Position numbers and translations under genes: made by a program
Part shown: positions 507 to 21,718 of the stretch, piece by piece
Layout: each line of letters opens with the position of its first letter
How positions within the stretch are numbered: the stretch's first letter is position 1
Notes under the pieces: generated by a model
What the model was told of the DNA's origin: nothing
Seen by the model: the letters and a program-made list of their open reading frames with translations, nothing else
Databases searched by the model: none
NCBI GenBank assembly: GCA_024639325.1
Contig: JAHEIO010000028.1
Span: 1-43,638 of the forward strand
Length of the DNA: 43,638 nt
Source: Gammaproteobacteria bacterium
Lineage (GTDB): Bacteria > Pseudomonadota > Gammaproteobacteria > Arenicellales > JAANXG01
Direction of reading: 5' to 3'

Positions 507-845
507 ATGATCAGAACGGTGATGGCGCTGATCGTGCCGGTGATGGCCGGGCTCGCGGCAAGCGCGCTCTGGGCATCGAGCGAGCTGACGGATGAGCGAA
601 TTCGCCAGCTCAATCAGATGCTCATACACGACTGTGGATCTTGCCACGGGCTGACCCTCAGCGGCGGTTTAGGGCCGGCTCTGACTCCCGCCGCGATGCA
701 GGGTAAGCCGACGGAAACCATTCGGCAAACAATCGTGAATGGACGCAAAGGCACGCCCATGCCGCCCTTCGGCAGCATGTTGTCCGGCCAGGATATCGAC
801 TGGCTCGTAGACGCCATCAAAGACGGGATAACCCGCGGTGATTGA
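507..845 (+). CDS. nirC: Periplasmic monoheme cytochrome c, NirC-like
   Basis: A 112-residue protein with an N-terminal signal peptide (hydrophobic segment about residues 5-22), one heme c motif CGSCH at residues 43-47, and a C-terminal distal Met in the MPPFG segment. This is the layout of small class I c-type cytochromes of nir operons. NirC is known as an electron carrier for NirS and has also been linked to the last steps of heme d1 maturation. Its ATG follows the nirE stop with no gap, and its last 8 bases overlap the GTG start of nirF, so it is translationally coupled on both sides. The family is certain; the exact role is inferred from the neighbours. Confidence 0.85.
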   Translation: MIRTVMALIVPVMAGLAASALWASSELTDERIRQLNQMLIHDCGSCHGLTLSGGLGPALTPAAMQGKPTETIRQTIVNGRKGTPMPPFGSMLSGQDIDWLVDAIKDGITRGD

Positions 846-2016: not shown

Positions 2017-3041
2017 AGTTGAACGATCTTGAATGCGAGCTGTTGAACAACTATCAGCGTGGCTTTCCACTGACGCCGCGGCCGTTCGCGGTCCTGGCTC
2101 GGGAACTGGGCACCGTGGAAAGCACCGTTATCGCGCTGCTGCGGCGGTTCGCACGCTCGGGAGTCGTAAGCCGTGTGGGGGCCGTGTTCCGGCCTAATAC
2201 GGTTGGGGTCAGCACCCTGGCCGCAGCGTCCGTGCCGGAACGTGATCTGATCGCCACTGCTGACTGCGTCAATTCCTTTGCCGAGGTCAATCACAACTAC
2301 GAACGCGAGCATCATTTAAACCTCTGGTTCGTGATCAATACGGCCACGAGCGAGCGACTCGACGCCGTACTGTGTGAAATCGAGCGTCGGACCGGGCATC
2401 CGGTTATTTCACTCCCGCTGATTCGGGATTACTATATCGACCTCGGCTTCGAACTGGATTTCGGCAACGGGCGGCGGTCAGGGCAAAAGATGAATTCAGC
2501 GAAGTCCAACGCGTGCATGACCAGAAAGCATGAATGGCATGAATGCGGCGAATCGATTGCCGCGCTGCAGGCAGGTTTGCCGCTGGAGCAGAAACCCTAT
2601 GCCGCGATCGCGGAGCGCGCCGGCCTCACCGAAGAAGCCCTGATCGGACTCATCGGCAACATGCAGAGCGCCGGTGTGATCAAACGTTTTGGGGTGGTGG
2701 TGCGTCATCATGAACTGGGGTACCGCGCCAACGCCATGTGCGTGTGGGACGTGGCGGATGAGCGAGTGGATGAGCTGGGAGAGCGCATGGCAAGCCTGCC
2801 ATTCGTAAACCTGTGCTATCGTCGCGAGCGGCGCGCTCCCGCTTGGCCGTACAATCTGTTCTGCATGGTTCACGGCAAAGAACGGGATCGGGTGCTGGGG
2901 CGGGTGGAACAGCTGAATCGGGATTTGCGGCTGCTGAAGCTGCCCCGGGCCGTGCTGTTCAGCGCGCGAAGGTTCAAACAACGGGGGGCCCTGTATCGCG
3001 TGGACGAATCGATCGACAACGAACGTACGGCTCATGGATGA
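2013..3041 (+). CDS. nirDL: Siroheme decarboxylase NirD-NirL fusion
   Basis: A 342-residue protein of two tandem AsnC/Lrp-like units. The N-terminal half (about residues 1-155) has a winged-helix segment and the HNYERE motif at residues 94-99 typical of NirD/NirG. A linker rich in Lys, Ser and Asn (about 155-175) leads into a second unit with the WPYNLFCMVHG motif of NirL/NirH. These proteins decarboxylate siroheme to 12,18-didecarboxysiroheme, the step after NirE and siroheme synthase. NirD and NirL are separate genes in some denitrifiers and fused in others, so the fusion is known but taxonomically informative. It overlaps nirF by 4 bases and nirG by 8 bases. Confidence 0.9.
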   Translation: MKLNDLECELLNNYQRGFPLTPRPFAVLARELGTVESTVIALLRRFARSGVVSRVGAVFRPNTVGVSTLAAASVPERDLIATADCVNSFAEVNHNYEREHHLNLWFVINTATSERLDAVLCEIERRTGHPVISLPLIRDYYIDLGFELDFGNGRRSGQKMNSAKSNACMTRKHEWHECGESIAALQAGLPLEQKPYAAIAERAGLTEEALIGLIGNMQSAGVIKRFGVVVRHHELGYRANAMCVWDVADERVDELGERMASLPFVNLCYRRERRAPAWPYNLFCMVHGKERDRVLGRVEQLNRDLRLLKLPRAVLFSARRFKQRGALYRVDESIDNERTAHG

Positions 3042-3477
3042 CCTGGATCGTCGCATCATCAACAATTTGCAGGGCGGCTTTCCGTTGGAAGACCGGCCTT
3101 TTCGGGTAGCCGCCGCCCGTCTGGATATCAGCGAGGAGCGGCTGATTGAACGAGTACGGGCCATGCTTGCCGATGGCCGGCTGTCGAGATTCGGCCCGTT
3201 GTACAATGTGGAGATGATGGGCGGCAGCTTCTCGCTGTGCGCCATGAGGGTGCCGGTCGAACGCTTCGAGGAGGTGGCCGAGCAGGTAAATTCCCTGCCG
3301 CAGGTGGCCCACAATTACGAGCGGGACCACCCATTCAACATGTGGTTCGTACTGGCGACGGAGTCGATGGATGGAATTGCCGAGGTCGTGGCCGAACTGG
3401 AGAGATCAACCGAACTCCCGGTCTACGAGTTTCCAAAGCTCGACGAGTACTATGTCGGATTGCGTTTCAATGTGTAG
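3034..3477 (+). CDS. nirG: Siroheme decarboxylase subunit NirG
   Basis: A 147-residue AsnC/Lrp-like protein starting MDDLDRRIINNLQGGFPL and carrying the NirD/NirG-type motif HNYERDHPFNMWFV in its C-terminal ligand-binding fold. It is a partner in the NirDLGH siroheme decarboxylase. The start at 3034 lies inside the end of nirDL (8-base overlap), which supports translational coupling. The gene ends at 3477. The following 207 bases break the otherwise overlapping operon and hold a palindromic repeat before nirH. Despite the fold, it is not expected to act as a transcription regulator. Confidence 0.88.
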   Translation: MDDLDRRIINNLQGGFPLEDRPFRVAAARLDISEERLIERVRAMLADGRLSRFGPLYNVEMMGGSFSLCAMRVPVERFEEVAEQVNSLPQVAHNYERDHPFNMWFVLATESMDGIAEVVAELERSTELPVYEFPKLDEYYVGLRFNV

Positions 3478-3575
3478 ACCGCATTTCTCACCAGGCGGCT
3501 TTAAATGCTTGCTAAGGACTTACAATGCTAGGGAATTTAGTATTTACTGAAATACAGTCTGCTTTGACAACGCCT

Positions 3576-3635
3576 ATCGCGGCGAGGGCGCCGCTCCTAC
3601 ACTACTTTCTTGTAGGAGGCGCGCCTCGCGCCGAT
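3576..3635. repeat. REP-like palindromic element, copy 1 (between nirG and nirH)
   Basis: The left arm ATCGCGGCGAGGGCGCCGCTCCTAC (first base 3576, last 3600; key core GGCGCCGCTCCTAC) faces a right arm TGTAGGAGGCGCGCCTCGCGCCG at 3611-3633, so the transcript can fold into a long GC-rich hairpin. The same left arm recurs base for base at 18186-18210. GTAGGAG...CGCGG palindromes of this kind are common interspersed REP elements in Gammaproteobacteria. The insertion lies inside an operon and could lower transcription or set an mRNA end ahead of nirH. The rest of the gap (3478-3575 and 3636-3684) holds no gene; a TTGACA sequence at 3564-3569 has no convincing -10 partner. Confidence 0.75.
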
Positions 3636-3684
3636 TTGGTCACTCGCTGTCGTCGCCAATTCAAGTGGTGACGACTCGAATGCA

Positions 3685-4203
3685 ATGAACGGTTTGACAG
3701 AACTCGATCGCCGGATTGTGCTCGCCACCCAGGGCGGCCTGCCGCTAACGGCGAGGCCTTTCGACATACTTGCCGAACAGTTGGACGTGGACGCCGATCT
3801 GATACGACAGCGCATGCAGCGCATGCTCGATCGCGGTGCGATAAGGCGGATCGGCGTTGTGCCCAACCATTACAAGCTCGGCTTTCGCGCCAACGGCATG
3901 TCGGTGTGGGATGTGGATGACGAGAAAATAGCGCACCTTGGCGAGCGTATCGGCGGTCTGGACTTCGTCAGCCATGCCTACCATCGTCCGCGCCGTTTGC
4001 CCGAGTGGCCGTACAACCTGTTCGCCATGGTCCACGGCAAGTCCCGCGACGAAGTCGCCCGCAAGGTAAAGCTGATTGCCGGGATCCTCGGTGACGCGCA
4101 GCGTCAACATGAGGTGCTGTTCAGCACTCGGGTTCTGAAAAAAACCGGTCTGCGACTGCTGGAACAGACTGTGATGACCGCGAGAAAATCAGAGGTTGCT
4201 TAA
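3685..4203 (+). CDS. nirH: Siroheme decarboxylase subunit NirH
   Basis: A 172-residue AsnC/Lrp-like protein beginning MNGLTELDRRIVLATQGG, with the NirL/NirH-type signature YHRPRRLPEWPYNLFAMVHG in the second half. It would complete the NirDL-G-H siroheme decarboxylase set. The ATG at 3685 has only a weak ribosome binding site. The gene is separated from nirG by 207 bases containing a REP-like palindrome, unlike the overlapping joins elsewhere in the operon. Its stop (TAA, 4201-4203) directly abuts the nirJ ATG at 4204. Confidence 0.87.
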   Translation: MNGLTELDRRIVLATQGGLPLTARPFDILAEQLDVDADLIRQRMQRMLDRGAIRRIGVVPNHYKLGFRANGMSVWDVDDEKIAHLGERIGGLDFVSHAYHRPRRLPEWPYNLFAMVHGKSRDEVARKVKLIAGILGDAQRQHEVLFSTRVLKKTGLRLLEQTVMTARKSEVA

Positions 4204-5418
4204 ATGTTCCGAATTTCCCAGTACATGAATGAGGTGAAGGCGCCGACGCCGGTCAAAGCCCCCCGGCAGCCGAAGGGGCCGGTGGTTATCTGGAATCTGA
4301 TACGGCGCTGTAATCTGACATGTAAACACTGCTATTCCATATCCGCAGACATCGACTTTCCCGGCGAACTCGACACGTCCCAGGTTATCGCTGTCATGGA
4401 GGACCTCAGGTCGTTCGGTGTTCCGGTGCTGATACTGTCCGGAGGCGAGCCGTTGCTGCGGCATGACATCTTCGAAGTCTCGAGGCAGGCCAAAAATATG
4501 GGTTTTTACGTTGGTCTGTCCACCAACGGGACCTTGATTACAAATGACAACATCGAACAGATCGCGAATATCGGCTACGATTATGTGGGCGTTAGCCTGG
4601 ACGGCACGCGGGAGACCCACGATCATTTCCGCCAGAAAGCGGGGGCTTACGATCAGTCATTGACGGGTATTCGATCGTGCCTCGATCACGGCATCAAGGT
4701 TGGCATGCGATTCTCCATAACGCGGGACAATGCATGCGAACTTCCGCTCATGCTGAAGCTCATGGAAGAAGAGGGTGTAGATAAATTCTATCTGTCTCAC
4801 CTCAACTACGGCGGCCGCGGCCAACGCCATCGGACCCACGACGTCGAACACGGCATTGGCCGTCAGGCCATGGATCTGCTGTTCGAAACCTGCTGGGCCG
4901 ATGTGCGCGGCGGCGGCAAGCGAGAATTCGTCAGCGGCAACAATGATGCCGACGGGGTGTACTTCCTGCGCTGGGTAAAAAGCCGATTCCCGGAACGCTA
5001 CGATCATTTGCTGCAGAAGCTCGAGCAATGGGGCGGCAACTCATCCGGGGTCAATATTGCCAACATCGACAACCTGGGAAATGTCCACCCCGACACGTTC
5101 TGGTGGAACTATACCCTGGGAAACGTAAAGGAAAGGAGCTTTTCCGAGATCTGGCCGGATGACTCCGATCCGATCATGGCCGGTCTCAAGAAGCGGCCCA
5201 GGCCGCTGCGAGGTCGTTGCCGCGTGTGCCGTTTTCAGAATATTTGTGGCGGCAACACGCGGGTGCGCGCTTTTCAAACCACCGGTGACCCCTGGTGGCA
5301 GGACCCCGGGTGCTACATGAACGACGAAGAGCTGGGAATCCGGCCCGAGGAGTACGAAATGGATCAACCGGTGCCGCTGGGGAGTATCAACAAACAGCAA
5401 GTGCGTTTCCCAGGCTGA
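4204..5418 (+). CDS. nirJ: Heme d1 biosynthesis radical SAM protein NirJ
   Basis: A 404-residue radical SAM enzyme. The cluster-binding motif CNLTCKHC (Cys36, Cys40, Cys43) is followed by the GGEPLL motif. A C-terminal SPASM-like Cys set (CRVCRFQNIC) indicates an additional Fe-S cluster. NirJ acts on didecarboxysiroheme, replacing propionate groups by the oxo groups of heme d1. It starts immediately after nirH and is followed after 13 bases by nirN. Length and motifs match full-length NirJ, and no damage is seen. Confidence 0.92.
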   Translation: MFRISQYMNEVKAPTPVKAPRQPKGPVVIWNLIRRCNLTCKHCYSISADIDFPGELDTSQVIAVMEDLRSFGVPVLILSGGEPLLRHDIFEVSRQAKNMGFYVGLSTNGTLITNDNIEQIANIGYDYVGVSLDGTRETHDHFRQKAGAYDQSLTGIRSCLDHGIKVGMRFSITRDNACELPLMLKLMEEEGVDKFYLSHLNYGGRGQRHRTHDVEHGIGRQAMDLLFETCWADVRGGGKREFVSGNNDADGVYFLRWVKSRFPERYDHLLQKLEQWGGNSSGVNIANIDNLGNVHPDTFWWNYTLGNVKERSFSEIWPDDSDPIMAGLKKRPRPLRGRCRVCRFQNICGGNTRVRAFQTTGDPWWQDPGCYMNDEELGIRPEEYEMDQPVPLGSINKQQVRFPG

Positions 5419-5431
5419 GCGGTCCGCGATT

Positions 5432-6976
5432 ATGCGCGGCTGGTTCGTTTTTTTGCTGGCATTACTCTGCACCGGGCCGGTGGCAAAGGGGGGAACGGCA
5501 TCCGGGCAACAACTCTACGCGCAGCACTGTGCGGGATGCCACGGCACCGATCGACTGGGCGGCACGGGCCCCGCTCTGCTGCCACAGAATCTCAAGCGGC
5601 TCAAGCCGGAGAAGGCGGCCCGGATCATCAACCGCGGCGCTGCGGCTACGCAGATGCCGGCATTTGATCAAACCCTATCGGAAAGCGACATTGCGAGCCT
5701 GGTTGCGTTGATCTACACGCCGCCGGATCGCGTGCCTGAATGGAAATTGGAGCAGATCATCGGGAGTCATGTCGCACCGGGGCCGCAGCCAGATACCGGG
5801 GGCCGGCCGGTATACAGCGCCGATCCGCTCAATCTCTTCGTGGTCGTTGAATCCGGTGATCACCACGCCACCATACTCGACGGCGATACCTTCGAGCCCA
5901 TTCATCGCTTCAAGACCCGATTTGCGCTGCACGGCGGCCCCAAATTCTCGAATGACGGCCGCTACGTGTACTTCGCCTCACGCGACGGCTGGGTTACCAA
6001 ATACGATTTGTACAAACTGCAGGTCCTGGCAGAAGTGCGGGCTGGTATCAATACGCGCAACCTCGCGGTATCCGGTGATGGCCGTTACGTCATGGTCGCC
6101 AACTATCTTCCTCACACCCTGGTATTGCTGGATGCCGCGGACCTTCGTCCCATTTCGGTAATTCAAGTGTCGGATTTGCGCGGTAATACGTCCCGGGTGT
6201 CGGCGGTATACGACGCGGGCCCCCGCCAGAGCTTCATCGCGGCACTCAAGGATCTTAAGGAAGTCTGGGAGATACCGTACTCGGATGACCCGCCCTATTA
6301 CGGCCCGGTGCACGATTACCGCGTGGAAGGTCCTATCGGTGAAGCCGTAAAATTCCAGGTGCGCCGGATAAGACTGGACGACTACCTCGACGATTTTTTC
6401 TTCGATCTGCGCTATGACAACCTGATCGGCGCGGCACGCAACGCAAAAAACGGCCAGGTGGTCAACCTCATCGTCGGACGAAAGATCGCTGATATCGATC
6501 TCAGCAGCATGCCGCACTTGGGTTCGGGAATCACCTGGCAGCGCAACGGCGTTACGTTGATGGCGACTCCTCACCTGCACGAGGCCGCGATATCGATCAT
6601 CGATACCGGTTCCTGGAAAAAGGTTGCACGAATCGAGACCCTCGGCCCCGGTTTTTTCATGCGCAGTCATGCCAATTCCGAGTACGCGTGGGCGGACGTT
6701 TTTTTCGGACCGCACCGGGACGCGGTCCACGTCATTGACAAGAACACCCTGGAGATCGTGAAAACGCTCAGGCCGGAACCCGGGAAAATCGCTGCGCATG
6801 TGGAATTCACCCGTGACGGACGCTATGCCCTGTTGAGCGTATGGGACATGGACGGCGCCCTGGTGGTCTACGATGCGAAAAGCCTGGAGGAGGTGAAGCG
6901 CATACCGATGGTCAAGCCGTCGGGTAAATACAACGTCTACAACAAGATCACCAAGGCGGAGGGCACCAGCCACTGA
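5432..6976 (+). CDS. nirN: Dihydro-heme d1 dehydrogenase NirN (cytochrome c / d1 propeller)
   Basis: A 514-residue protein with a signal peptide (about residues 1-23), an N-terminal cytochrome c domain with heme motif CAGCH (residues 33-37), and a C-terminal d1-type beta-propeller with blade motifs such as SNDGRYVYFASRDG and FTRDGRYALLSVWDMDG. NirN is known to introduce the acrylate double bond of heme d1 as the last biosynthetic step in the periplasm. It is called NirN rather than NirS because it follows nirJ, is shorter than typical NirS, and its propeller starts with the FALHGGPKFS segment I associate with NirN. The NirN/NirS distinction rests on recall and context and should be checked by alignment. 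It is the last gene of the cluster visible here. Confidence 0.82.
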   Translation: MRGWFVFLLALLCTGPVAKGGTASGQQLYAQHCAGCHGTDRLGGTGPALLPQNLKRLKPEKAARIINRGAAATQMPAFDQTLSESDIASLVALIYTPPDRVPEWKLEQIIGSHVAPGPQPDTGGRPVYSADPLNLFVVVESGDHHATILDGDTFEPIHRFKTRFALHGGPKFSNDGRYVYFASRDGWVTKYDLYKLQVLAEVRAGINTRNLAVSGDGRYVMVANYLPHTLVLLDAADLRPISVIQVSDLRGNTSRVSAVYDAGPRQSFIAALKDLKEVWEIPYSDDPPYYGPVHDYRVEGPIGEAVKFQVRRIRLDDYLDDFFFDLRYDNLIGAARNAKNGQVVNLIVGRKIADIDLSSMPHLGSGITWQRNGVTLMATPHLHEAAISIIDTGSWKKVARIETLGPGFFMRSHANSEYAWADVFFGPHRDAVHVIDKNTLEIVKTLRPEPGKIAAHVEFTRDGRYALLSVWDMDGALVVYDAKSLEEVKRIPMVKPSGKYNVYNKITKAEGTSH

Positions 6977-12252: not shown

Positions 12253-12627
12253 GTGCTGCGTACCACGTTTTTGAACAACGAAATCTCCATACAGCGATAT
12301 AATTTCCTCTCAATCCTCGGTCGAATACAAACAGCTCTGCCGGTCGTTTTAGTGCTCCTGTCTATTTTCTCCTGGGACTGGTCACATGCGCAGAGCGACT
12401 CTGGTGTCGAGCGAGTGAGTGCTTCGGTGACGAGCCACCAAACGCAGGTGAATGAAGAGAACCCTCTCGCCGTGGAGCCCGGTCAGGCCCAGGAAAAACC
12501 GAATAAGTTGACCACATTCTTTAAAATCGGGATCTTGATCAACGCCCTGATACTGCTGCTGTTTGCTGTCTGGGTCATCAGAGAATGGAAAAAGAACGGG
12601 AAAAAAAGCGGGGAAACCGGGAATTGA
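12253..12627 (+). CDS. Small membrane protein ahead of SCO1 gene
   Basis: A 124-residue frame from GTG 12253; a TTG at 12271 is an alternative start. An N-terminal hydrophobic segment (TALPVVLVLLSIF) with a possible signal cleavage at HAQS is followed by a polar region rich in Glu and Gln (about residues 48-85). A C-terminal transmembrane helix (ILINALILLLFAVWVI) ends in a basic tail. No family is recognised. It overlaps the next gene (SCO) by up to 43 bases, so it probably belongs to the same copper/oxidase-assembly transcript. Confidence 0.5.
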   Translation: MLRTTFLNNEISIQRYNFLSILGRIQTALPVVLVLLSIFSWDWSHAQSDSGVERVSASVTSHQTQVNEENPLAVEPGQAQEKPNKLTTFFKIGILINALILLLFAVWVIREWKKNGKKSGETGN

Positions 12628-13259
12628 AGAAATATTTCCCAATAGGGACCATTACTCTGTTCGGGATTCTTGTGTGTCTTGTGATTGCGGCGAGCGTGCT
12701 GGTAAACAGATTGATCCCGGACATCCCGAACGATCTTGCCGGTGTACTGCGGCCGGCCCCAAGGGCGTTACAGCCGATTGCATTCAAGGATCACAAGGGC
12801 AGGCTCTATACTCTGGCGGAGCTGGAGGGGAAGTGGACGTTCCTCTTTTTTGGATACACCTACTGCCCGGACATCTGCCCGACGACGTTAACACTGTTGA
12901 CCTCGCTGGTCGACCAGCTCGGGCAGGAGCCGGGTGTGGCGGAAGAGATCCAGGTCGTATTCGTTTCCGTCGATCCGCAGCGTGATAAACCCGAGACCCT
13001 TGCCCGGTATCTGGCCTATTTCAACGATGAATTCGTCGGCATCACGGCCGATGAAACCAAGACCCGCGCCTTCGCGGACCAGTTCGGTGCCTTGTTTTTC
13101 AAGGAGCGGGAAACGGACCCGGAAAACTATCTGATGGCTCACGCCAGTTCAATATATCTCATCGGGCCGAACGCGGAAATCATCGCGTCGTTTTCACCGC
13201 CCCACGATCACAATACCATAGCGTCACAGTTTCGTATAATTCGAAAGCTGAAATCATAA
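12585..13259 (+). CDS. SCO1/SenC family copper chaperone
   Basis: A 224-residue membrane-anchored thioredoxin-fold protein. A basic N-terminus and one transmembrane helix (about residues 20-42) precede the SCO domain, which has the copper motif TYCPDICPTT (CxxxC) and the later conserved His in LMAHASSIYLIGP. SCO proteins deliver copper to, or reduce, the CuA site of subunit II of heme-copper enzymes. A CuA subunit II is encoded at 20962-21498. The start is uncertain: ATG 12585 overlaps the upstream gene by 43 bases, while TTG 12624 would give a 4-base overlap (TTGA). It is one of two SCO genes in this island. Confidence 0.88.
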   Translation: MEKEREKKRGNRELKKYFPIGTITLFGILVCLVIAASVLVNRLIPDIPNDLAGVLRPAPRALQPIAFKDHKGRLYTLAELEGKWTFLFFGYTYCPDICPTTLTLLTSLVDQLGQEPGVAEEIQVVFVSVDPQRDKPETLARYLAYFNDEFVGITADETKTRAFADQFGALFFKERETDPENYLMAHASSIYLIGPNAEIIASFSPPHDHNTIASQFRIIRKLKS

Positions 13260-13273
13260 TCCTTCAACCCTAC

Positions 13274-13702
13274 ATGGACCTCATACCGGTTATTCCACCG
13301 TTCCTGGCAGTGCTCAACACCACGGCGGCATTGTTGGTGATCACAGGATACGTTTTCATTCGAAAAGGGAACCGCTCGGTACACAGGGCCTGTATGGTCA
13401 GCGCTCTCTTGGTATCCACCATCTTCATGGTGTTCTATCTTTATTACCATGCAAAGATCGGCAACATACCTTTCGCGGGCACCGGAATCGTTCGACCGAT
13501 CTATTTTTCAGTCCTGGCAACCCATGTGATACTGGCAGCGTTTCTGTTCCCCATGGCCCTGGTCACGGCAGGATTCGCGATCAGAAGTAAGATTACACGG
13601 CATCGACGGATAGCCCGGTGGACGCTGCCGATATGGCTGTATGTCTCCGTTACGGGGGTTGTCATCTATTTCATGGCATTTCACATGTACCCCGGCGCGT
13701 AA
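13274..13702 (+). CDS. DUF420 family membrane protein
   Basis: A 142-residue integral membrane protein with four transmembrane helices and conserved histidines in RSVHRACM, YLYYHAK, LATHVILA and FHMYPG. This is the DUF420 (CtaM/YozB) pattern, a family linked to assembly of CuA-type heme-copper oxidases. It starts 14 bases after the SCO gene, so the two are probably co-transcribed. It runs convergently into the degenerate heme-copper gene, with a composite hairpin between them. Confidence 0.85.
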   Translation: MDLIPVIPPFLAVLNTTAALLVITGYVFIRKGNRSVHRACMVSALLVSTIFMVFYLYYHAKIGNIPFAGTGIVRPIYFSVLATHVILAAFLFPMALVTAGFAIRSKITRHRRIARWTLPIWLYVSVTGVVIYFMAFHMYPGA

Positions 13703-13711
13703 ACAGTGAAT

Positions 13712-13749
13712 CCCGCGTTGTCAGTCAAAAATTGACTCGTTGGCGCGGG
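13712..13749. terminator. Composite hairpin between convergent genes
   Basis: CCCGCG (13712-13717) pairs with CGCGGG (13744-13749), and inside it AGTCAA (13723-13728) pairs with TTGACT (13732-13737) around an AAA loop, with unpaired bases between the two stems. It lies between the DUF420 gene and the end of the heme-copper-like gene and overlaps the last codons of the latter. It is a candidate bidirectional terminator without a clear T-run. Confidence 0.4.
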
Positions 13750-15133
13750 TGGTCGTCATCGCCCGATACACGATGATCAGGAAGAGAATGCCGCCGATAA
13801 CGGCGATCAGACCGCCAAGCCCCATTAGCCCCATTCCGGCGATTTTCTCTATGCCGTCCAGCGCCTGTGACTCGCCCGCGGTCTTTCTCTGAACACCGTA
13901 ACCACCTGACCATGCCAGACCAATGACATGGAGCAATTGGCCCGCTCCATAAAACCAGGGTTGCAGGACCACCATCCGGCCCCGGGGCCGTCTGAATCCG
14001 AGTAAAGGCAGGATGTGGTAAGTCACACCCATATATGCCAGCGTGACGGCGACAATGGAGCCATGATAATGGGCCGGGACCGTCACATCGCTGCCCTGGA
14101 TCATGAATCCGATCACGCCGCCCACGCCAAACAGTATCATCGACGATAGCAGCGAGGATCTTTCCGCGCTGAGGTTCTTTTCGCTTCGATAAGAATTAAC
14201 CAGATTGAACAGGATGATGAGACCGATAGGCAGTGCGGCCAGGCCTCCCCCGTACTGCATCAACCAGGTCATGGTTTGAATGTGATCTCCCGACTCGATA
14301 TCGAAGCGATAAGCCATCGGAGTCAGCAGCGCGGGGGTGAGTCCGATAATAAACAGAAATAAAACGACCCGCGGCGTCAATCTGGAGGTGATTCCGGACA
14401 CGGTAGCCAGCCACAGCCAGGACACGAGCATCAGCTGGACATGGACGAACTGCAACGTGTGGCCGCTTCCCCAGAACAGGAGTTCGAAGTAGCGTTCGCC
14501 TTCGATCGTGTCCGGCAGGCGAATGTAAGAAGCGAACAGCGCGCCGATGGAAACAAAAGCCGATATTAGTGCTGAATACAACCCGAACCGGAGCGCGCCC
14601 TGTCCGCTCACCAGCGCCCCGATTGGTCTCGAACACAGCAGTCCGCGGATCACCAGGATCAAAAAACCCACACCGAAAACAATTAATCCCGCAAAAAAGA
14701 ACGGGTCTGCCAATATCGGTATATAGTTGGTCATCATTGGCCCTCCGGCGCCCACGAAAGGCGAGAGAGCCAGGATCAATGAACCGGCGATACAAAAGAA
14801 AAGGGCCATCCAGCCGGACCGTTGACCCGCGACCTTGCTGTTGATGCTCCAGAACACACCTGCCATCGACAGGAACCAAACCAGCACGGTCATGTCCACA
14901 TGAACGACGAGAGCGGTGTGGAAAATATCCGTCCACGGAAAGATGTGCTGAAGGAATGGTGTGCGCGACAGCACTATGACCACGGTCAGAAGACCGCCGA
15001 CTACCAGTGAGCCCAGGGCAAGCAGCAGCCAACCGGTGCTCAACCGGCGGACACTGGCCTCCGGCATGTCGAGCACGTAGGCGTTAAGATATTCGTGCCG
15101 GCTGTGTTGGGCCGGAGGAAACGCCCTGATCAA
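13721..15133 (-). CDS. Heme-copper oxidase subunit I-like protein lacking the CuB His pair
   Basis: A 470-residue polytopic protein with the subunit I layout (about 12 helices). Helix II has the low-spin heme His (VVHVDM, His78). Helix VI has a GSGHTLQFV motif (His225). Helix X has PAHYHG (His355 and His357), the usual ligands of the high- and low-spin hemes. The helix VII region, where heme-copper enzymes carry the adjacent His pair for CuB, reads LTPALLTPMAYRF (265-277); no HH occurs anywhere in the protein. The position of the cross-linked Tyr (His+4) is Phe. A normal CuB site therefore seems absent. It is encoded last in the minus-strand operon, overlapping the 178-residue gene by 4 bases. 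Function is unknown: perhaps a heme-bearing membrane electron-transfer partner of the adjacent cytochrome b fusion. Confidence 0.8.
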   Translation of the reverse strand: MIRAFPPAQHSRHEYLNAYVLDMPEASVRRLSTGWLLLALGSLVVGGLLTVVIVLSRTPFLQHIFPWTDIFHTALVVHVDMTVLVWFLSMAGVFWSINSKVAGQRSGWMALFFCIAGSLILALSPFVGAGGPMMTNYIPILADPFFFAGLIVFGVGFLILVIRGLLCSRPIGALVSGQGALRFGLYSALISAFVSIGALFASYIRLPDTIEGERYFELLFWGSGHTLQFVHVQLMLVSWLWLATVSGITSRLTPRVVLFLFIIGLTPALLTPMAYRFDIESGDHIQTMTWLMQYGGGLAALPIGLIILFNLVNSYRSEKNLSAERSSLLSSMILFGVGGVIGFMIQGSDVTVPAHYHGSIVAVTLAYMGVTYHILPLLGFRRPRGRMVVLQPWFYGAGQLLHVIGLAWSGGYGVQRKTAGESQALDGIEKIAGMGLMGLGGLIAVIGGILFLIIVYRAMTTTRANESIFD

Positions 15134-15666
15134 TTGACAGAAAACCCGTTTTTATCCGGATCGAAAGATAACACGAGGCGTTGTGCAGGCAACAATTTCA
15201 CGGTCTTTTCGAACTCGAAAGTGGGGCCGTCCACGTTTGAATCGTCGTTCATCCAGACCGAAAGATGGTGTTGTCCCTTAGGCACCTTGATGTTCCGGTA
15301 CACATCGATGCTCTGGTCCTGATAGAGGCCGGGAGGCCGGAGGACCTCCCTGGCGGCGAGCTCGCCATTGAGGCGCAGTTCGATGGTTACCGGCGAGCGC
15401 TGGCGCGGGCAGTCCATGGGCTTGCGCATATTCGGAGCCAGTTTGTCGAGCTCTTCCTGGGTGAGCACGCTGCATTCGGAAACCCGCTTCGAGGCGTGCC
15501 CGAAGGCCAATGTGACAACCGCACTGTTCTCGGCGAGCTGCCGATAGGGTGGGCTGAATGAAAAATACCAGACGATGGCCATGAACACCGCATAGTTGAC
15601 CGCCTGCAGCAGGAGGTAACCGACGTTGCTCCGGCTTGGTGCAATTTGCGGGTTAGATTCCGGCAT
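15130..15666 (-). CDS. Membrane-anchored periplasmic protein of the respiratory island
   Basis: A 178-residue protein with one N-terminal transmembrane helix (about residues 15-36) and a soluble, beta-rich C-terminal domain with two Cys (VSECSV and MDCPRQ). I recognise no catalytic motif. It overlaps the cytochrome b fusion gene by 14 bases and the heme-copper-like gene by 4 bases, so the three are tightly coupled in translation and probably make one complex. It may serve as an accessory or assembly subunit. Confidence 0.65.
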   Translation of the reverse strand: MPESNPQIAPSRSNVGYLLLQAVNYAVFMAIVWYFSFSPPYRQLAENSAVVTLAFGHASKRVSECSVLTQEELDKLAPNMRKPMDCPRQRSPVTIELRLNGELAAREVLRPPGLYQDQSIDVYRNIKVPKGQHHLSVWMNDDSNVDGPTFEFEKTVKLLPAQRLVLSFDPDKNGFSVN

Positions 15667-17227
15667 CCTGGGTATCTCGGTCAGTGCCCAAACGGGACGG
15701 TTCGTGATCCGATGCGTTCAGCCCGGCAATCGCGCTGTGGAAATCGGCTAACGATTTTCTTATTCTGGCGCCGTCGATTTCCGCGCCTCGGGAGACCATG
15801 ATACGCCTCCGATCGGCGCGTGCGCGCAGTCTCGGTTTACGGCTGCCTTCGAACCTTTTGTCCAGCCAGACATTGCCATAGCGAAAGTAACAATCGCCGG
15901 TGCGGCAGCCGGTTATGAAGATGCCGTCGGCGCCTTTTTTCAGCGCGTATTCCATCAGGGTGGAAGGCAGCATGCCGATACAATACACCTTCACCACTGC
16001 GGAATTGTCGGACTCCAGAGCCGATACATCGAACGTGTTGTCACAGCCGAAGACCAGAATCTTGGTGTCAGCTTTGAGACTGGAAATCGCACGGTCGGTC
16101 TCGTCTCTGAGTTGGTTGGCGGATAGCTGCGGCATGTCTATTCCGGTAACCAGCGGCTCGTGCTTCTGCCGGAACGGGTTTGAAGAAGGACACGAGCCCA
16201 GGCAGATGCCGCAGGCGGCGCACTGATTAGGCTGGACCACGACCTCGTGCGCCCAGCGCGCTCCATCCGTCCTGGCACGGACATCGATCGCATCGAACGG
16301 ACAGTCGTCCGCACACTGTCCGCAGCCGTTGCAGTGGTCGAGATGAACCACGGCTGGTTTTCCGGTTTTCTTTGGCGGCAGCCACGGCAGGAGCATCAGT
16401 AGGAACGTGGTCCCCAGGGTGATCATCCAGGTTTGGCGGGCGGTGTAATAATCCAGCAGCGGGTACACGTTGAGGTAAAACCAGTCTAGGTGCAGCACCC
16501 TGGGTACCTGCGAAAGGTTGGCCGGGCCATGGCTCTCCACCGGGGCGATAAGGGACAGCGCCAGCAACGCGATAAAGCTTCCTATGGCGAGGCCTCGCGG
16601 TGCGTTGATTTCCACGTAGGACAGCCGTTTGACGTGAATCCATACTGCGAACACCAGGAGAATCGGCTGTCCCAGCAGATGGAGAAACCCCATTAGTGTA
16701 AAGAACCTGTCGGTTAGCTGCCCCTCGAGGAAGTTGCGTGCCATGGAACCCGATACAAAAGGCAGGGCGTCGGCCAGTTCCGACGACCGTACCGCCAAAT
16801 AGAGCGCCAGTTCATCCCACACCAGCCAATAACCGGTGATGCCAAGGGTGATCACGAACCACAGCGTTGGCACCCCGGTGATCCAGGAAAACCAGCGGAA
16901 ACCCCTGTAGCGGTCCAGCGAAAATTCCCGGAACATGTGCAAAATAATGGTGATGACTGCGGCATCAGAAGCATATCTGTGCATGCTGCGCATGACGCCG
17001 GCCATGTACCATTGTTCGTGGCTGATGTACTCGACCGATTTGTATGCGCCGGCGATACTGGTGTCGAAGAAGATGAACAGATACAGTCCGCTGACCAACA
17101 CCACCCAGAAAAAGAAAAAGGTCAATGTGCCAAGATTGTAGAGCGGGTTCCACGAGGGACCGAACGAAAAGTTGAACCACCCTTCGAGCAAACGGTAGCC
17201 CAGCTTGATCGGGTTGATCTTGGTCAA
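15653..17227 (-). CDS. Cytochrome b / 2x[4Fe-4S] ferredoxin / MvhD-like fusion protein
   Basis: A 524-residue three-part protein. (1) Residues 1-280 are a cytochrome b N-terminal-type membrane domain with heme pairs His83/His97 (13 residues between) and His183/His198 (14 between, as in b6-type proteins). (2) Residues 295-350 are a ferredoxin with two cluster motifs, CNGCGQCADDCP (Cys299, 302, 305, 309) and CAACGICLGSCP (Cys336, 339, 342, 346). (3) Residues 388-460 resemble MvhD/FrhD of hydrogenase and heterodisulfide systems, with ILVFGC (Cys395), VYC (416) and GCRTGDC (441, 446). It could move electrons between quinone and a soluble donor or acceptor. The start is TTG at 17225-17227, with AGGA about 8 bases upstream. 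The partners are encoded directly downstream. The physiological donor is unknown. Confidence 0.85.
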   Translation of the reverse strand: MTKINPIKLGYRLLEGWFNFSFGPSWNPLYNLGTLTFFFFWVVLVSGLYLFIFFDTSIAGAYKSVEYISHEQWYMAGVMRSMHRYASDAAVITIILHMFREFSLDRYRGFRWFSWITGVPTLWFVITLGITGYWLVWDELALYLAVRSSELADALPFVSGSMARNFLEGQLTDRFFTLMGFLHLLGQPILLVFAVWIHVKRLSYVEINAPRGLAIGSFIALLALSLIAPVESHGPANLSQVPRVLHLDWFYLNVYPLLDYYTARQTWMITLGTTFLLMLLPWLPPKKTGKPAVVHLDHCNGCGQCADDCPFDAIDVRARTDGARWAHEVVVQPNQCAACGICLGSCPSSNPFRQKHEPLVTGIDMPQLSANQLRDETDRAISSLKADTKILVFGCDNTFDVSALESDNSAVVKVYCIGMLPSTLMEYALKKGADGIFITGCRTGDCYFRYGNVWLDKRFEGSRKPRLRARADRRRIMVSRGAEIDGARIRKSLADFHSAIAGLNASDHEPSRLGTDRDTQDAGI

Positions 17228-17295: not shown

Positions 17296-18144
17296 TTAGA
17301 CCGTGGGGCGGCGTTTGCCGCGCCGGTATTCACGAATTATGAAGCCTGCTGCCAGCATAATGATTATGCCGCCGATCAACATGCCAATGAACAGGGAATA
17401 ATCGAAACTGTATGAATCGCTGGCCGGATCGTATGCCGTACAGAATAATCTGACCTTGTCGATCAGTTCGTCCACAAAGGACTGGTTTGGCTTAGGCCGG
17501 CCGAGCACCAGGTCCATCAGGGGTTCGATTAGCTGCGGGGTCTCAAATGTCTCTCCGTAGACCTGCCTGTAAATTTTCCCATCAGCATCTATGATGGTCG
17601 CCTGGACGATATGATCGAAGCCGTTGGGGGAAGTAAAAAACTCGAAGCCAAGTTCGTCCGCAAGTTTATCGATGGTTGTCTCGTCGGCACTGAGCAAATG
17701 CCAACCGGCGTCATCGACCCCCTGTTTTTGCGCGAATTGCTTCATCGCCTGTGGACTGTCGAACCTGGCATCGAATCCGAGCACGGCAACCGAAAAACTG
17801 CTCGTACCCAGCGCATCCCTCGCTTTTTCTATAACCTTCGAAAGGTGTCTTATGGTAATCGGACAGATCGCGTAACAACTAGTGTAAATCAGGCTAAGTA
17901 CCAGAGGTTTGCCTTTGAGATCAACGAATGGCAACGCTTCGCCGGATGCATTCGTCAGTCGGTGATCCGAGACCTCTTTGCCGATGGCGTTCTGGCTTGC
18001 ACTGAGCGCGGTCTTGTACTGGAATTGTGCGATGGACTCCCTGGTGTTCGGTCTGGATTTACCGGTTGCCATCCCGGGGAATACGAGGGCCAGGGTCATG
18101 ACCACAATAGCCGACCACCGACTAACATTGAGCACAGTTATCAT
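17296..18144 (-). CDS. SCO1/SenC-like protein with C-terminal membrane anchor
   Basis: A 282-residue protein with a signal peptide (about residues 1-27, ending GMATG) and an SCO thioredoxin-fold domain. The copper motif is TSCYAICPIT (CxxxC) and the His is in NGFDHIVQATIID. A C-terminal transmembrane helix (about residues 250-272) ends in a basic tail. It probably supplies copper to the CuA subunit encoded upstream in the same operon. The anchor sits at the C-terminus, unlike the N-terminal anchor of the other SCO at 12585-13259, which suggests two sub-families with separate jobs. Confidence 0.85.
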   Translation of the reverse strand: MITVLNVSRWSAIVVMTLALVFPGMATGKSRPNTRESIAQFQYKTALSASQNAIGKEVSDHRLTNASGEALPFVDLKGKPLVLSLIYTSCYAICPITIRHLSKVIEKARDALGTSSFSVAVLGFDARFDSPQAMKQFAQKQGVDDAGWHLLSADETTIDKLADELGFEFFTSPNGFDHIVQATIIDADGKIYRQVYGETFETPQLIEPLMDLVLGRPKPNQSFVDELIDKVRLFCTAYDPASDSYSFDYSLFIGMLIGGIIIMLAAGFIIREYRRGKRRPTV

Positions 18145-18289: not shown

Positions 18290-19138
18290 TCAGATCACAT
18301 CCAATACGGCAAAGATTAGCAGGGCCACCAGCTGAATCAGGGAAGCAAAAAAGCTTTTCATTGCGGTTTTACGGCATGGATTTCCAGCGAGTTGAACGCT
18401 ACGGTAGATAAAATATGCTCCGCCAGCGAGTGCACCAGCCAGGTAGATCCACCCCAGGCCAAAGAAAAAAGGCAGTATCGAGCAGACGACCAGCGCGGTC
18501 GTATTCCACAATACCGCGTTGGCGGCGCTCTGGTCGCCAACCACCACGGGCAACATCGGTACTCCGGCCGCCGCATATTCATCTCGCTGGGCGATCGCAA
18601 GGCTCCAGAAGTGGGGCGGTGTCCACAGAAAAAGCACCATCGCAAGGAGCATCGGAACCGGGCCAAGCTGTGGATCAACCACCGCCGCTCCCGCCAATAC
18701 CGCAAAGCTGCCCGACGCACCCCCGATGACGATGTTCAACCAGGTGCGGCGTTTTAGCCAGATCGTGTATACCACGGCATAGAAGAATGCACCGAGAAAT
18801 ACGTACAAACCCGCCATGTCGTTCAGCATGAGAGCGGCGGCACCGACGCCAACGACGAGAAGGAGGGCGATCGGCAGGAGCCACCAGGCATTGTGGACGA
18901 ACGAACCCGTCACGAACGGTCGATTTCGGGTTCGCCGCATACGCGAATCAAGATCCGTCTCGAAGTACTGGTTGAAGGCGCCGGCGCTGCTGGAAGCCAG
19001 CAATACTGAAAGAAAGAGAACTGCCGATTCCCACACAGCCACAGGGCGGCCGGGTGTCACCGCAAGTGCCACTACTGCGGTGATGGACATTAATATGCCT
19101 ATGCGAACCTTGAACAGATCAACTAACTGCTTAACCAT
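18290..19138 (-). CDS. ctaB: Protoheme IX farnesyltransferase (heme o synthase)
   Basis: A 282-residue UbiA-family prenyltransferase with about nine transmembrane helices. The prenyl-diphosphate motif is visible as NQYFETDLDSRMRRTRNRP, with the second conserved loop YTIWLKRRTWLNIVIGG and the LFLWTPPHFWSLA segment typical of CtaB/CyoE. It converts heme b to heme o. Its place just downstream of the heme-copper subunit I gene implies that this enzyme, or its degenerate relative, carries an o- or a-type heme. No heme a synthase (CtaA) is seen in the window, so heme o is possible as the final form. Confidence 0.92.
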   Translation of the reverse strand: MVKQLVDLFKVRIGILMSITAVVALAVTPGRPVAVWESAVLFLSVLLASSSAGAFNQYFETDLDSRMRRTRNRPFVTGSFVHNAWWLLPIALLLVVGVGAAALMLNDMAGLYVFLGAFFYAVVYTIWLKRRTWLNIVIGGASGSFAVLAGAAVVDPQLGPVPMLLAMVLFLWTPPHFWSLAIAQRDEYAAAGVPMLPVVVGDQSAANAVLWNTTALVVCSILPFFFGLGWIYLAGALAGGAYFIYRSVQLAGNPCRKTAMKSFFASLIQLVALLIFAVLDVI

Positions 19139-19218: not shown

Positions 19219-20955
19219 TCAGCCCAGCGGCCAGACGGAAGCCAGGTACTTCCAGTTGATGAAGTAATAAACCACAAACGAAACCAGAAGTACCATCGCC
19301 AGCGCAAAAGTGCCCGGTGCCTCGAAGCCGCTCGAACCGTGTTCCTCCACGCTCAGCTTCGGTGCCATCGGCAGCGTCTCCGGACGGTTGGTGTTGTACA
19401 CGGATGCGGCGAGTGATTTACCCAGGAAGCTTTGCAGGAAGCCGGCCGACGGCTCCAGTTTTTTCCCGAACATCAACGACCCTACCGCTACGAGCAGGTA
19501 GATCGCGCCGCCGACAATGGCCAAAAGCCCGCCTATCGCCGCAATAGCCATCAGCGTATAGGCCATACCGGGATATTCGAAGCCGAGCGCCGCTCCGGTG
19601 AAATCCATATCCCAGTGCCGGCGTGACACGCCAAGTGTTCCGGCGCCGAGCATGAACAGGATCAGGATGGTCATGCCGCCGCCAAAGATGTACGGCTGCA
19701 GCTTGGCGAGTTTGGGAAAGATCATCTCACGCCGGAAAAGGACGGGTATGAGCAGATAGGTCAGCGCCATGAACGCCAGCGTGGTTCCAACGGCCACCGT
19801 TGCGTGGAAGTGTGCGGGAACATATATGGTGTTGTGGATGATCAGGTTGATCTGCAACGTTCCCATTACGACACCGGTGATGCCGCCAATGAACCCGAAA
19901 ACCAGTAGCGAAATAAACATACCGGAAAAAACCGGGTTGTCCCAGGGCGCCTTGCGTAGCCATTCGAATATCCCGTTGGTCAGGCCTTTTTTGCGCTGCG
20001 CGACCTCGATTGAACCCGGAACGGTCAGGCCATGGATCATGCTGGCCAGTACGGCCAAATACATCGCGTAGCTGGTGTTGAATATTCTCCACTCCGTACT
20101 GACCCCGGGGTCCACCAGGATGTGGTGAGCGCAAGCCAGCTGCAGGAATAAGATGTAAAGTAGAAATGCCATGCGGCTGACCTTCTCCGACATGGGTCGT
20201 GCCCCAAAAAGGACTCCGGCTAGCAGGTACCAGACCGACACGTGTGCTGCAACGTTGACCTGCTGGGATGAATGTCCCAAGCCCCACCACACGATCCGGT
20301 ACATCTCGGCGTCTATGTGGCTGATATAACCGATCGACCACAGGAATGTGGGGATCAATATGATTGCCCCGGAAGCGATGGTGAACACGGCGATGATGGC
20401 CGCGGTTATCGCACCAAAGGTGACCAGCGGAACAGAGCCTTCGTAAGTTTTCTCCTGGTGGGCAACCACCAGGGTGCCAAAGAAGACGAATACCTGCAGC
20501 AGCGCACCGACCGCAAACAGGATGAGTCCGAGGTAGAAGTGCGGAGCCGCCTGCATCGGCGCGTAAGACGTCATCATCACGCTCGAGTTGCCTTGGAATA
20601 CGGCCACGTTATTCATGACCGCGCCGATAACCATCAGGATGAATCCAATCCAAGCCCAGGCAGGCGTCGCCAGACGGCACCTGAGCAGGGTAGAGGAGGC
20701 GAAATGCAGGATCGCCATCTCGAAGAAAATGATCCAGAAGATGAGTGCGTTGATGCCATGCGCAGTGAGGCCCATGTAGAACGCCTCAGCGGACAGCAGA
20801 TGCACCTCCTGCCAGCGAGTCAGAACTACTCCCACGGCCAGGACACCAGCTACCAGCAGGAAGACGACCCCAAGCACCGCATTCACCTTCATCAGGCTTT
20901 CGGCGGACTTGTGAAAATAGAATCCAGAATCCGGACATGTACGAAATTCTGCCAT
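19219..20955 (-). CDS. Heme-copper reductase subunit I (CuA-type; probable nitric oxide reductase)
   Basis: A 578-residue, polytopic heme-copper subunit I. Ligands: low-spin heme His66 (TAHGIN) and His384; high-spin heme His382 (PAHFH); metal-B His228 (GLGHSSQQV), His277 and His278 (CAHHIL). At His228+4, where O2-reducing A-type oxidases have the cross-linked Tyr of GHPEVY, this protein has Gln232. Loss of that Tyr is a mark of nitric oxide reductases derived from oxidases. Several such families (eNOR, sNOR and others) have been described, some with a CuA subunit. With subunit II, SCO and DUF420 nearby and a heme d1 cluster in cis, an electrogenic NO reductase is the best reading, but O2 reduction is not excluded. 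ATG 20955 has GGGGAG upstream. Confidence 0.85.
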   Translation of the reverse strand: MAEFRTCPDSGFYFHKSAESLMKVNAVLGVVFLLVAGVLAVGVVLTRWQEVHLLSAEAFYMGLTAHGINALIFWIIFFEMAILHFASSTLLRCRLATPAWAWIGFILMVIGAVMNNVAVFQGNSSVMMTSYAPMQAAPHFYLGLILFAVGALLQVFVFFGTLVVAHQEKTYEGSVPLVTFGAITAAIIAVFTIASGAIILIPTFLWSIGYISHIDAEMYRIVWWGLGHSSQQVNVAAHVSVWYLLAGVLFGARPMSEKVSRMAFLLYILFLQLACAHHILVDPGVSTEWRIFNTSYAMYLAVLASMIHGLTVPGSIEVAQRKKGLTNGIFEWLRKAPWDNPVFSGMFISLLVFGFIGGITGVVMGTLQINLIIHNTIYVPAHFHATVAVGTTLAFMALTYLLIPVLFRREMIFPKLAKLQPYIFGGGMTILILFMLGAGTLGVSRRHWDMDFTGAALGFEYPGMAYTLMAIAAIGGLLAIVGGAIYLLVAVGSLMFGKKLEPSAGFLQSFLGKSLAASVYNTNRPETLPMAPKLSVEEHGSSGFEAPGTFALAMVLLVSFVVYYFINWKYLASVWPLG

Positions 20956-20961
20956 GGCTAT

Positions 20962-21498
20962 TTACTCCCCGACGTAGATTCTGCCGACCATCAGATGGTG
21001 GCCAATACCACAGTATTCATTGCAGACAACCCCATATTCGCCCGCTTGATCGGGGGTTATCTGTAATACCATTTCATACCCAGGCACGACTTGCAGATTG
21101 ACGTTGATCGGCTGCAGCGAGAAACCGTGCTGCCAATCCATGGAGGACAAATGCAGTCTATAGCTTTGGTCCTTCTCCAGTTCGAAGATTGGATACCATT
21201 GCCACAGCCGGCCCAGCATATAGATGTCACTTCCGGCAGGGGGCTTGACAACGGGAATCCCTGATTCTTCCCTGACCTGATATTGTTCGACCATCTCCTG
21301 GACCCTGGCACCGAATTTCGCCGGCGTCGTTTGATAGGCCTCAGTTGCCGGGTTTTGTTTACCGTAGATATGCCAGTACGGCATCATCAGAAACATGATC
21401 AAACACCAGACGAGTGATATGGCGATCCATACCAGTTCTTGCCGGCCCACGGGCATTTTCCACCAAATGCGTTCGGCCGGGGGCATATATGAAGTCAT
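20962..21498 (-). CDS. Heme-copper enzyme subunit II with CuA site
   Basis: A 178-residue protein with one N-terminal membrane helix (about residues 22-40) and a periplasmic cupredoxin domain. The full CuA ligand set is present: His124 (DWQHGF), Cys159, Glu161, Cys163, His167 and Met170 in CNEYCGIGHHLM. It would accept electrons from a periplasmic cytochrome c and pass them to subunit I, whose gene starts 6 bases downstream. The ATG is preceded by AGGAGG. The short single-anchor form resembles B-type (ba3-like) and NOR-type subunit II rather than the two-helix form of aa3 oxidase. Confidence 0.9.
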   Translation of the reverse strand: MTSYMPPAERIWWKMPVGRQELVWIAISLVWCLIMFLMMPYWHIYGKQNPATEAYQTTPAKFGARVQEMVEQYQVREESGIPVVKPPAGSDIYMLGRLWQWYPIFELEKDQSYRLHLSSMDWQHGFSLQPINVNLQVVPGYEMVLQITPDQAGEYGVVCNEYCGIGHHLMVGRIYVGE

Positions 21499-21523: not shown

Positions 21524-21718
21524 CTATGGTGCGACAGGCAAAGTTACGATTTCCATGATGCCCCAGATGAGGTAAAAAACCGTGGGCATAGCGACGCCGA
21601 TGAAAAGGAGCAGGAAAGGATTGTCCAGTAATGATTGCATCCCCGGGATGCGCTCGTACTTTTCGTCGGAGGGGTTGGTCGGATTGGCACTCGAGGATTG
21701 GCTCGCGTTGTCTGTCAT
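21524..21718 (-). CDS. Small single-helix subunit of the heme-copper complex
   Basis: A 64-residue protein with a polar N-terminus rich in Ser, Asn and Thr and one C-terminal transmembrane helix (PFLLLFIGVAMPTVFYLIWGI). It has a strong ribosome site (AGGAGG, about 7 bases upstream). It is the first gene of the minus-strand operon, 25 bases ahead of subunit II. Small subunits of this type are common in ba3-like and NOR complexes. Homology cannot be judged from so short a sequence. Confidence 0.7.
   Translation of the reverse strand: MTDNASQSSSANPTNPSDEKYERIPGMQSLLDNPFLLLFIGVAMPTVFYLIWGIMEIVTLPVAP

Follow-up and report, generated by a model that had tools for sequence, protein, structure and literature searches.

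Nitric oxide (NO) reductases of the eNOR type are found in many lineages, are often misannotated and may conserve energy via a proton channel, and the accessible parts of two papers on them contain no statement that we could find on their electron source (PMC8756737, PMC8114936). There is also precedent for membrane redox proteins that carry NAD-binding domains in the cytosol and are tied to redox partners in the periplasm (accessible text of PMC8238504). Here we consider a contig of 43,638 nt from a gammaproteobacterium of the Arenicellales lineage (JAHEIO010000028.1, assembly GCA_024639325.1; this whole stretch is referred to as the window), in which a single gene encodes a cytochrome b, two [4Fe-4S] ferredoxin motifs and an MvhD-type domain within one protein (below, the fusion) beside predicted eNOR genes. 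We suggest, with a probability of about one half, that in Proteobacteria the fusion is an electron-transfer partner dedicated to eNOR and links, across the membrane, a cytosolic low-potential carrier to the quinone/NO reductase side.

Domain architecture of the fusion

The fusion gene (15653–17227, minus strand) starts with TTG at 17227 and encodes 524 residues; the plus-strand frame is interrupted by stops. An earlier note, made from the sequence alone, had given the same boundaries and length without stating the strand. All three parts of the protein score above the curated cut-offs of Pfam: PF00033 (cytochrome b) at residues 27–200 with E 6e-18, Fer4/Fer4_7 at residues 293–348, and PF02662 (FlpD, i.e., MvhD) at residues 407–503 with E 5e-14 and 52.9 bits versus the cut-off of 22.3.

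Two hundred and forty-five relatives of the fusion were found by scanning species genomes, and the conservation and operon counts reported here are based on the best 80 of them, part of which are fragments cut by contig ends. The heme ligands H83 and H97 are retained in 78 relatives each, H183 and H198 in all 80. Among the ferredoxin Cys, C299 and C302 are retained in 79 relatives each and the remaining six in 80 each, and the MvhD Cys are retained in 80 (C395, C416, C446) or 79 (C441). Since all 16 proposed ligands are kept in 78–80 of the 80 relatives, the combination of these domains is not a chance product. The same residues had been assigned in the earlier note to a di-heme cytochrome b, a double ferredoxin and an MvhD-like C-terminal domain, and these assignments prove correct throughout, with each MvhD Cys present in at least 79 of the 80 relatives. 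In a 29-row alignment of the family the four His, the eight ferredoxin Cys and C395, C416 and C446 are invariant, and C441 nearly so. The AlphaFold2 model built from this alignment has a mean pLDDT of 81 and a pTM of 0.77. In PDB, the membrane part is related to cytochrome b6 and to cytochrome b of bc1, and the remainder has its relatives among MvhD chains and polyferredoxins.

No NCBIfam model among the best 25 of 70 matches listed in one scan and the 14 listed in another reaches its curated cut-off, and a plasmid copy of the fusion is annotated only as 'cytochrome b N-terminal domain-containing protein'. One TGA (or TAA) codon was flagged within several matches, and the possibility of an in-frame TGA read as selenocysteine was considered and rejected: the aligned body is free of stops up to query residue 488–501 in the seven loci checked, and hence the flagged codons are read as normal gene ends.

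The membrane domain (residues 24–288; 16364–17158, minus strand) reaches approximately residue 288 and comprises helices A–F, extending beyond the N-terminal four-helix part. Structural comparison by VIA-align, covering chiefly residues 11–288 of the fusion (for the MvhD part, sequences were compared instead), aligns residues 24–288 with residues 35–357 of the cytochrome b chain of M. smegmatis (Z 22.0, rmsd 3.0, 258 aligned residues), and profile comparison by hhalign with bc1 cytochrome b, represented by three sequences from related gammaproteobacterial genomes, yields a probability of 98.8. The four heme-ligating His of helices B and D, forming the pairs H83/H183 and H97/H198, are aligned with those of b6 and bc1. 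The segment LDWF (residues 247–250; 16478–16489, minus strand) pairs with PVWY of the gammaproteobacterial bc1 and is the equivalent of the Qo motif PEWY, in a variant rather than literal form. Within the 29 rows D248 and W249 are invariant (29/29), Leu or Ile occupies position 247, and F250 is found in 28. Position 203, corresponding to the bc1 His five residues past the n-side heme ligand, is Ser in 22 rows, Thr in three, Asn in two, Val and Ala in one each, and His in none. The position of the additional heme-binding Cys of b6 is occupied by His (17 rows), Asn (6), Tyr (3), Cys (2) and Gln (1); a claim that this Cys is absent from the family was dropped as too strong, as it occurs in two of the 29 rows. 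No Rieske family match was obtained in Pfam or NCBIfam for the ten window proteins scanned around the fusion. In sum, the membrane domain represents a bc1-like, Rieske-free cytochrome b in which helices A–F and a PEWY-like Qo motif are retained; by comparison with cytochrome b, it is predicted to have six membrane helices and both termini in the cytoplasm.

The cytosolic part consists of the double [4Fe-4S] ferredoxin domain (residues 293–348, eight Cys; 16184–16351, minus strand) and the MvhD/FlpD domain (approximately residues 388–507, with Cys 395, 416, 441 and 446; 15707–16066, minus strand), the latter matched in sequence comparison to the MvhD chains 5odc_D, 9sw2_D and 8rvv_F. The MvhD domain would carry a [2Fe-2S] cluster and the ferredoxin domain two [4Fe-4S] clusters. 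Residues 292–507 of the fusion match residues 572–775 of the HdrA2 model in NCBIfam, and this model matches all 29 fusion family members scanned. No HdrABC, hydrogenase or formate dehydrogenase partner is seen among the ten scanned proteins of the window. The same genome encodes an HdrA-like protein (contig C97, 22540–22986; open frame of 1085 aa with FAD, Fer4 and MvhD domains), possibly a soluble relative or partner of the fusion.

Association of the fusion with eNOR

The operon containing the fusion gene lies on the minus strand and encodes, in this order, a 64-aa protein with a single transmembrane (TM) segment, CuA subunit II, subunit I, heme O synthase, an SCO-family protein, the fusion, a small protein denoted here sm, and a COX1-like paralog denoted pHCO; the genes of the fusion, sm and pHCO overlap successively by 14 and 4 bases. 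Subunit I (norB here; 19219–20955, minus strand; PF00115) contains the motifs GHSSQQVN, AHH and PAHFH. The cross-linked Tyr of oxidases is replaced in it by Gln (GHSSQQ), and H228, Q231 and Q232 are invariant in 20 of 20 rows of alignment A2 and in at least 95% of 52 relatives. The His set is complete, as H228, H277, H278, H382 and H384, which we take to be the CuB and heme ligands, are invariant in the same alignment. Subunit II (norC here; 20962–21498, minus strand) matches COX2 (PF00116) over the cut-off and CoxB under it, and its CuA motif CNEYCGIGHHLM is kept in 47 relatives. The accessible part of PMC8756737 defines eNOR by a Gln that replaces the cross-linked Tyr of the active site. Given this Gln and the CuA-type subunit II, the heme-copper genes beside the fusion are classified, by their predicted products, as an eNOR-type nitric oxide reductase operon, and nitric oxide reductase activity is predicted for norB/norC of the window. 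The earlier note spoke of a heme-copper operon; the heme-copper genes are real, but their identity, that is norB and norC of eNOR plus a paralog without the CuB His pair, had been missed, and the recognition of eNOR as the partner is the chief new result.

The gene order norC-norB-(ctaB)-sco-fusion-sm is conserved in Gamma- and Alphaproteobacteria. When only loci with a sufficiently long flank in the contig are counted, norB is found upstream of the fusion in 48 of 51 loci, norC in 47 of 49, sco2 in 68 of 72 and ctaB in 44 of 65, while sm is found downstream in 72 of 75; norB and the fusion share the strand in 65 of 65 cases.

Co-occurrence was assessed in 369 genomes of Gammaproteobacteria (E limit 1e-60) and in 299 genomes of the phylum (limits 1e-40 and 1e-60), with the window's genome in both samples. 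In the former set, 34 genomes have the fusion, 34 have eNOR, and 33 have both; in the latter set, the respective numbers are 33, 29 and 28. The eNOR count for Gammaproteobacteria is 35 profile matches minus one genome, dropped because its GHPIVY segment has the oxidase Tyr and its subunit I is only 32% identical to that of the window. Fisher's test, uncorrected for kinship, yields p of 1.5e-43 for the 369 genomes, with the dropped genome still counted as having eNOR, and 3.6e-33 for the 299 genomes. Two genomes have eNOR and no fusion, and in them the contig ends 18 bp past norB and 31 bp past sco2, respectively. The pairing of the fusion and eNOR is thus far demonstrated within Pseudomonadota only. 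Together, the operon and the co-occurrence point to a functional link between the two.

Fusion loci without adjacent eNOR bear on another explanation, according to which the fusion is a NarI/FdnI-like quinol dehydrogenase that serves a cytosolic reductase under redox or NO stress, shares its regulation with eNOR and donates no electrons to it. Such a role would suit the extra copies of the fusion outside the eNOR operon (L059, L060, L062) and agrees with the ability of MvhD to serve different partners (accessible part of PMC6085437). However, the co-occurrence is near one to one, and eNOR is present in all seven genomes searched behind loci of this kind, in one of them as a fragment; with the genome of a control locus having adjacent eNOR, the total is eight of eight genomes searched. 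The genomes of the three extra copies hold a complete norC-norB-ctaB-sco2-fusion-sm-pHCO operon elsewhere, and in the genome of a fourth locus (L063) norC-norB lies on a different contig. These four loci had been regarded as cases of the fusion without eNOR, which was overturned once their genomes were searched. We consider the quinol dehydrogenase role highly improbable.

Duplications of the fusion gene are also observed. In Thioalkalivibrio denitrificans a second copy follows sm, and a single other family has four genomes with tandem copies, three of which were read. In four loci of T. denitrificans and this family the duplicated genes are inside the eNOR cluster.

Proposed electron transfer and alternative explanations

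In three of the 369 gammaproteobacterial genomes a further protein combines the same cytochrome b (43–54% identical to that of the window) with a different cytosolic part. In L110 (1675–4224, minus strand), located inside an eNOR cluster, it is a CysJ-type NADPH diflavin reductase, with residues 314–849 matching positions 58–596 of 597 in TIGR01931 (E 5e-163, 544 bits, under the cut-off of 668). In L112 (3583–5571, minus strand), away from the eNOR cluster, it is a reductase of Fer2, FAD and NAD-binding domains (FNR). The third protein, L111, is cut by the contig end and adjoins pHCO in an eNOR cluster, and its visible linker resembles that of L112. In a phylogenetic tree, the MvhD forms and these three proteins constitute one clade against bc1 cytochrome b with support of 100/100, and the branching order among the MvhD, FNR and CysJ forms is not resolved. 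Because NAD(P)H is the electron source of CysJ and Fer2-FNR modules in the families known, we read the shared role of all forms as electron transfer that connects the membrane with cytosolic carriers, most likely running outward from the cytosol.

Under the proposed scheme, a soluble low-potential cytosolic carrier would exchange electrons with the [2Fe-2S] cluster of the MvhD domain. From there, as the ligands and the fold suggest, electrons would pass via the two [4Fe-4S] clusters to the n-side heme (H97/H198) and further to the p-side heme (H83/H183). The p-side heme would deliver them either to quinone or, in a direct step, to the CuA side of eNOR, the enzyme predicted to reduce NO to N2O. 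We think that the usual direction is from the cytosol to the membrane or periplasm, and regard this as the weakest step of the proposal; the identity of the carrier and a physical complex with eNOR are its predicted features. The data support the more general idea of the earlier note, a membrane electron-transfer device, here one that unites a quinone-type cytochrome b and two [4Fe-4S] clusters with a genuine domain of the MvhD family.

Several observations weigh against a dedicated partnership with eNOR. No soluble donor or HdrA is seen in the fusion operon, and the nearest HdrA-like protein with an MvhD domain in this genome, the one described above, is encoded on a different contig. The fusion is found without eNOR in six genomes, of which five are 69–82% complete, but one is listed as 96% complete, in 730 contigs. 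In plasmid eNOR operons of Thermus and Thermomicrobium (GHGAQQVN), in a search that covered plasmids, no fusion is adjacent, and therefore eNOR may not require the fusion in every lineage; a plasmid search with the fusion as the query gave no Thermus match either. Finally, a second, bc1-type cytochrome b is present in 31 of the 34 fusion genomes, and so the usual bc1 route could feed eNOR. The latter count also led to rejection of the fusion as a general replacement of bc1. In the window's genome (95.6% complete) the fusion is the only PF00033 protein found, despite the CtaD and CcoN oxidases; the missing bc1-like cytochrome b in this genome and in two other fusion genomes may be an assembly gap.

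The maturation genes in the neighborhood (sco2, ctaB, a second SCO gene and DUF420) suggest a different function, namely that of an assembly factor, in which the fusion, together with SCO, heme O synthase and the small, Ig-like sm, would act as a heme-based cupric reductase or a metal-insertion helper for eNOR. A precedent is CcoG, which has two [4Fe-4S] clusters, adjoins the cbb3 genes, reduces Cu(II) and has a C-terminal periplasmic Ig-like domain (accessible part of PMC7558416). The predicted model of sm, with one TM segment and a beta-sandwich, is in line with this, and a metal reductase would also be compatible with the NAD(P)H-linked modules that the paralogs have in the cytosol. On the other hand, the fusion far exceeds CcoG in composition, having an MvhD domain in addition to a complete two-heme cytochrome b whose Qo-type motif is invariant; to our knowledge, CcoG has neither a cytochrome b nor an MvhD domain. 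Moreover, neither FixG/CcoG for the fusion nor FixH/CcoH for sm is matched in Pfam or among the NCBIfam matches listed (for the fusion, the best 25 of 70). We consider an assembly role unlikely.

The retained helices A–F, the ef loop and the LDWF motif, as well as the lack of the Qi-side His of bc1 (no His at position 203 in 29 rows) and the close pairing with a high-potential acceptor on the periplasmic side, i.e., eNOR, would also be compatible with Rieske-free quinol bifurcation. In that case the Qo-like site would oxidize quinol, sending one electron to CuA of eNOR, which would take the place of a Rieske protein, and the other through the b hemes and the [4Fe-4S]/MvhD centers to a reduced cytosolic carrier. 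However, the operon provides no Rieske-type mobile carrier, and the CysJ and FNR paralogs look like modules of electron input. MvhD and [4Fe-4S] centers are usually of low potential, which, if it holds here, would make the uphill branch demanding. On balance, bifurcation by the fusion appears quite improbable. A broader version, in which eNOR, SCO, the fusion and sm would form a Rieske-free bc-like supercomplex, bifurcating quinol electrons to NO via CuA and, uphill via the b hemes, to a cytosolic ferredoxin- or HdrA-type acceptor, is likewise quite improbable; if true, it would mean that NO reduction drives the production of a low-potential cytosolic reductant.

Under the preferred reading, i.e., the fusion as the electron-transfer partner of eNOR, a cytochrome b with swappable cytosolic redox modules is a direct, testable candidate for the feeder of eNOR. 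It bears on the question of whether reduction of NO to N2O conserves energy in sulfur-oxidizing and sediment bacteria, and the fusion gene may be used as a marker for proteobacterial eNOR in metagenomes.

Other genes of the window and comparison with known systems

The 64-aa single-TM protein upstream of norC (21524–21718, minus strand), identified by reading the sequence rather than by a family search, is a probable extra subunit of eNOR. The gene ctaB/cyoE (18290–19138, minus strand) encodes heme O synthase (TIGR01473 above the cut-off), and sco2 (17296–18144, minus strand; PF02630) encodes an SCO-family protein having a C-terminal TM segment, CxxxC and a conserved FCTxYDP segment, as observed with 71 relatives. 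The sm gene (15130–15666, minus strand) overlaps the end of the fusion gene, and its product has invariant Cys 65 and 86 (alignment A3). The predicted sm model has a pLDDT of 93. No Pfam family matches sm, the best fold match is the weak one to HGSNAT (Z 9.5, 93 aligned residues, rmsd 2.6), and Foldseek yields none at E 0.001. Considered as a stand-in for a Rieske protein or cupredoxin, the 27 sm members scanned show no recurring family: ATP-synt_B is matched by three (best E 0.00016) and Cupredoxin_1 by one (E 0.18).

The paralog pHCO (13721–15133, minus strand; PF00115 with E 2e-12) is optional in the cluster, occurring in 19 of the 35 loci that have sufficient flanking sequence. It keeps the heme-side ligands GH (H225) and PAHYH and has lost the HH pair of CuB; a comparison with PDB gave nothing at E 0.01. 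Convergent to it on the plus strand are a DUF420 gene (13274–13702; PF04238) and a second SCO1/SenC gene (12585–13259; PF02630). Heme d1 biosynthesis genes (838–6976, plus strand), comprising nirF-like, nirDLG/H-like, nirJ and nirN-like genes, are 7 kb from the eNOR operon and provide a denitrification context; NirJ (TIGR04051) and AhbA/AhbB are above the cut-offs, and the names nirF and nirN are our reading of PF02239 matches. Genes similar to nirJ or nirF are inside 12 of the 80 fetched fusion loci. No further PF02239 match in the window's genome fits NirS, and the contig begins at the heme d1 cluster. The other heme-copper enzymes found in this genome are the CtaD/CoxA and CcoN oxidases, both over the NCBIfam cut-offs, and among the four (CtaD/CoxA, CcoN, eNOR and pHCO) eNOR is the sole NO reductase found. 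Further along the window, at 34639–41580, a two-component sensor gene adjoins a minus-strand run of cyclopropane-fatty-acid-synthase-like and amine-oxidase-like genes, according to open reading frames alone.

The earlier note did not recognize the fusion as part of a described complex, and this is upheld so far by the NCBIfam matches listed and by the open-access literature, where no description of the fusion with eNOR was found, the main eNOR paper (PNAS 2024) and a 2022 BBA paper, which may show the operon, being outside that search. With cytochrome b of bc1 and b6f the fusion shares helices A–F, two bis-His heme pairs and the PEWY-like motif (Z about 22). It differs from them in that the neighbors scanned include neither a Rieske nor a cytochrome c1/f gene, in lacking the Qi-side His of bc1 (0/29) and, in all but two of 29 rows, the b6 extra-heme Cys, and in the cytosolic Fe-S/MvhD extension. 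The same Cys framework is found in the C-terminal ferredoxin and MvhD cassette of HdrA2 and in free-standing MvhD/VhuD, whereas the fusion has no FAD domain, is joined to a membrane cytochrome b, and has no HdrBC or hydrogenase among the neighbors scanned. The best listed NCBIfam match of the membrane domain is ExtP, a b-type cytochrome of selenite/tellurite operons (residues 29–201, 99 of 290 bits), and ExtQ matches residues 218–292 (27 of 150 bits); both are far under the cut-offs, and these models lack the Fe-S/MvhD part.

MsrQ-like and PepSY-like membrane heme proteins share the general plan of a cytosolic donor domain, a membrane part and an extracytosolic acceptor, but belong to other membrane families, and MvhD/FlpD is not mentioned in the accessible main text on them (PMC8238504). 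CcoG of the cbb3 oxidase resembles the fusion as a membrane protein with two [4Fe-4S] clusters encoded next to a heme-copper enzyme (accessible part of PMC7558416). The same triple as in the fusion is seen in RME88945.1 from a survey of Chloroflexi, compared by its listed domains alone: PRK03735 (cytochrome b6), DMSOR_beta-like and FlpD (PMC8756737, Table A3). That protein has an additional C1 cytochrome domain, and in the accessible part of the survey it is neither discussed nor linked to eNOR (PMC8756737). Relative to all these systems, what is new is a Rieske-free cytochrome b that bears an HdrA-type Fe-S/MvhD tail and is linked to eNOR.

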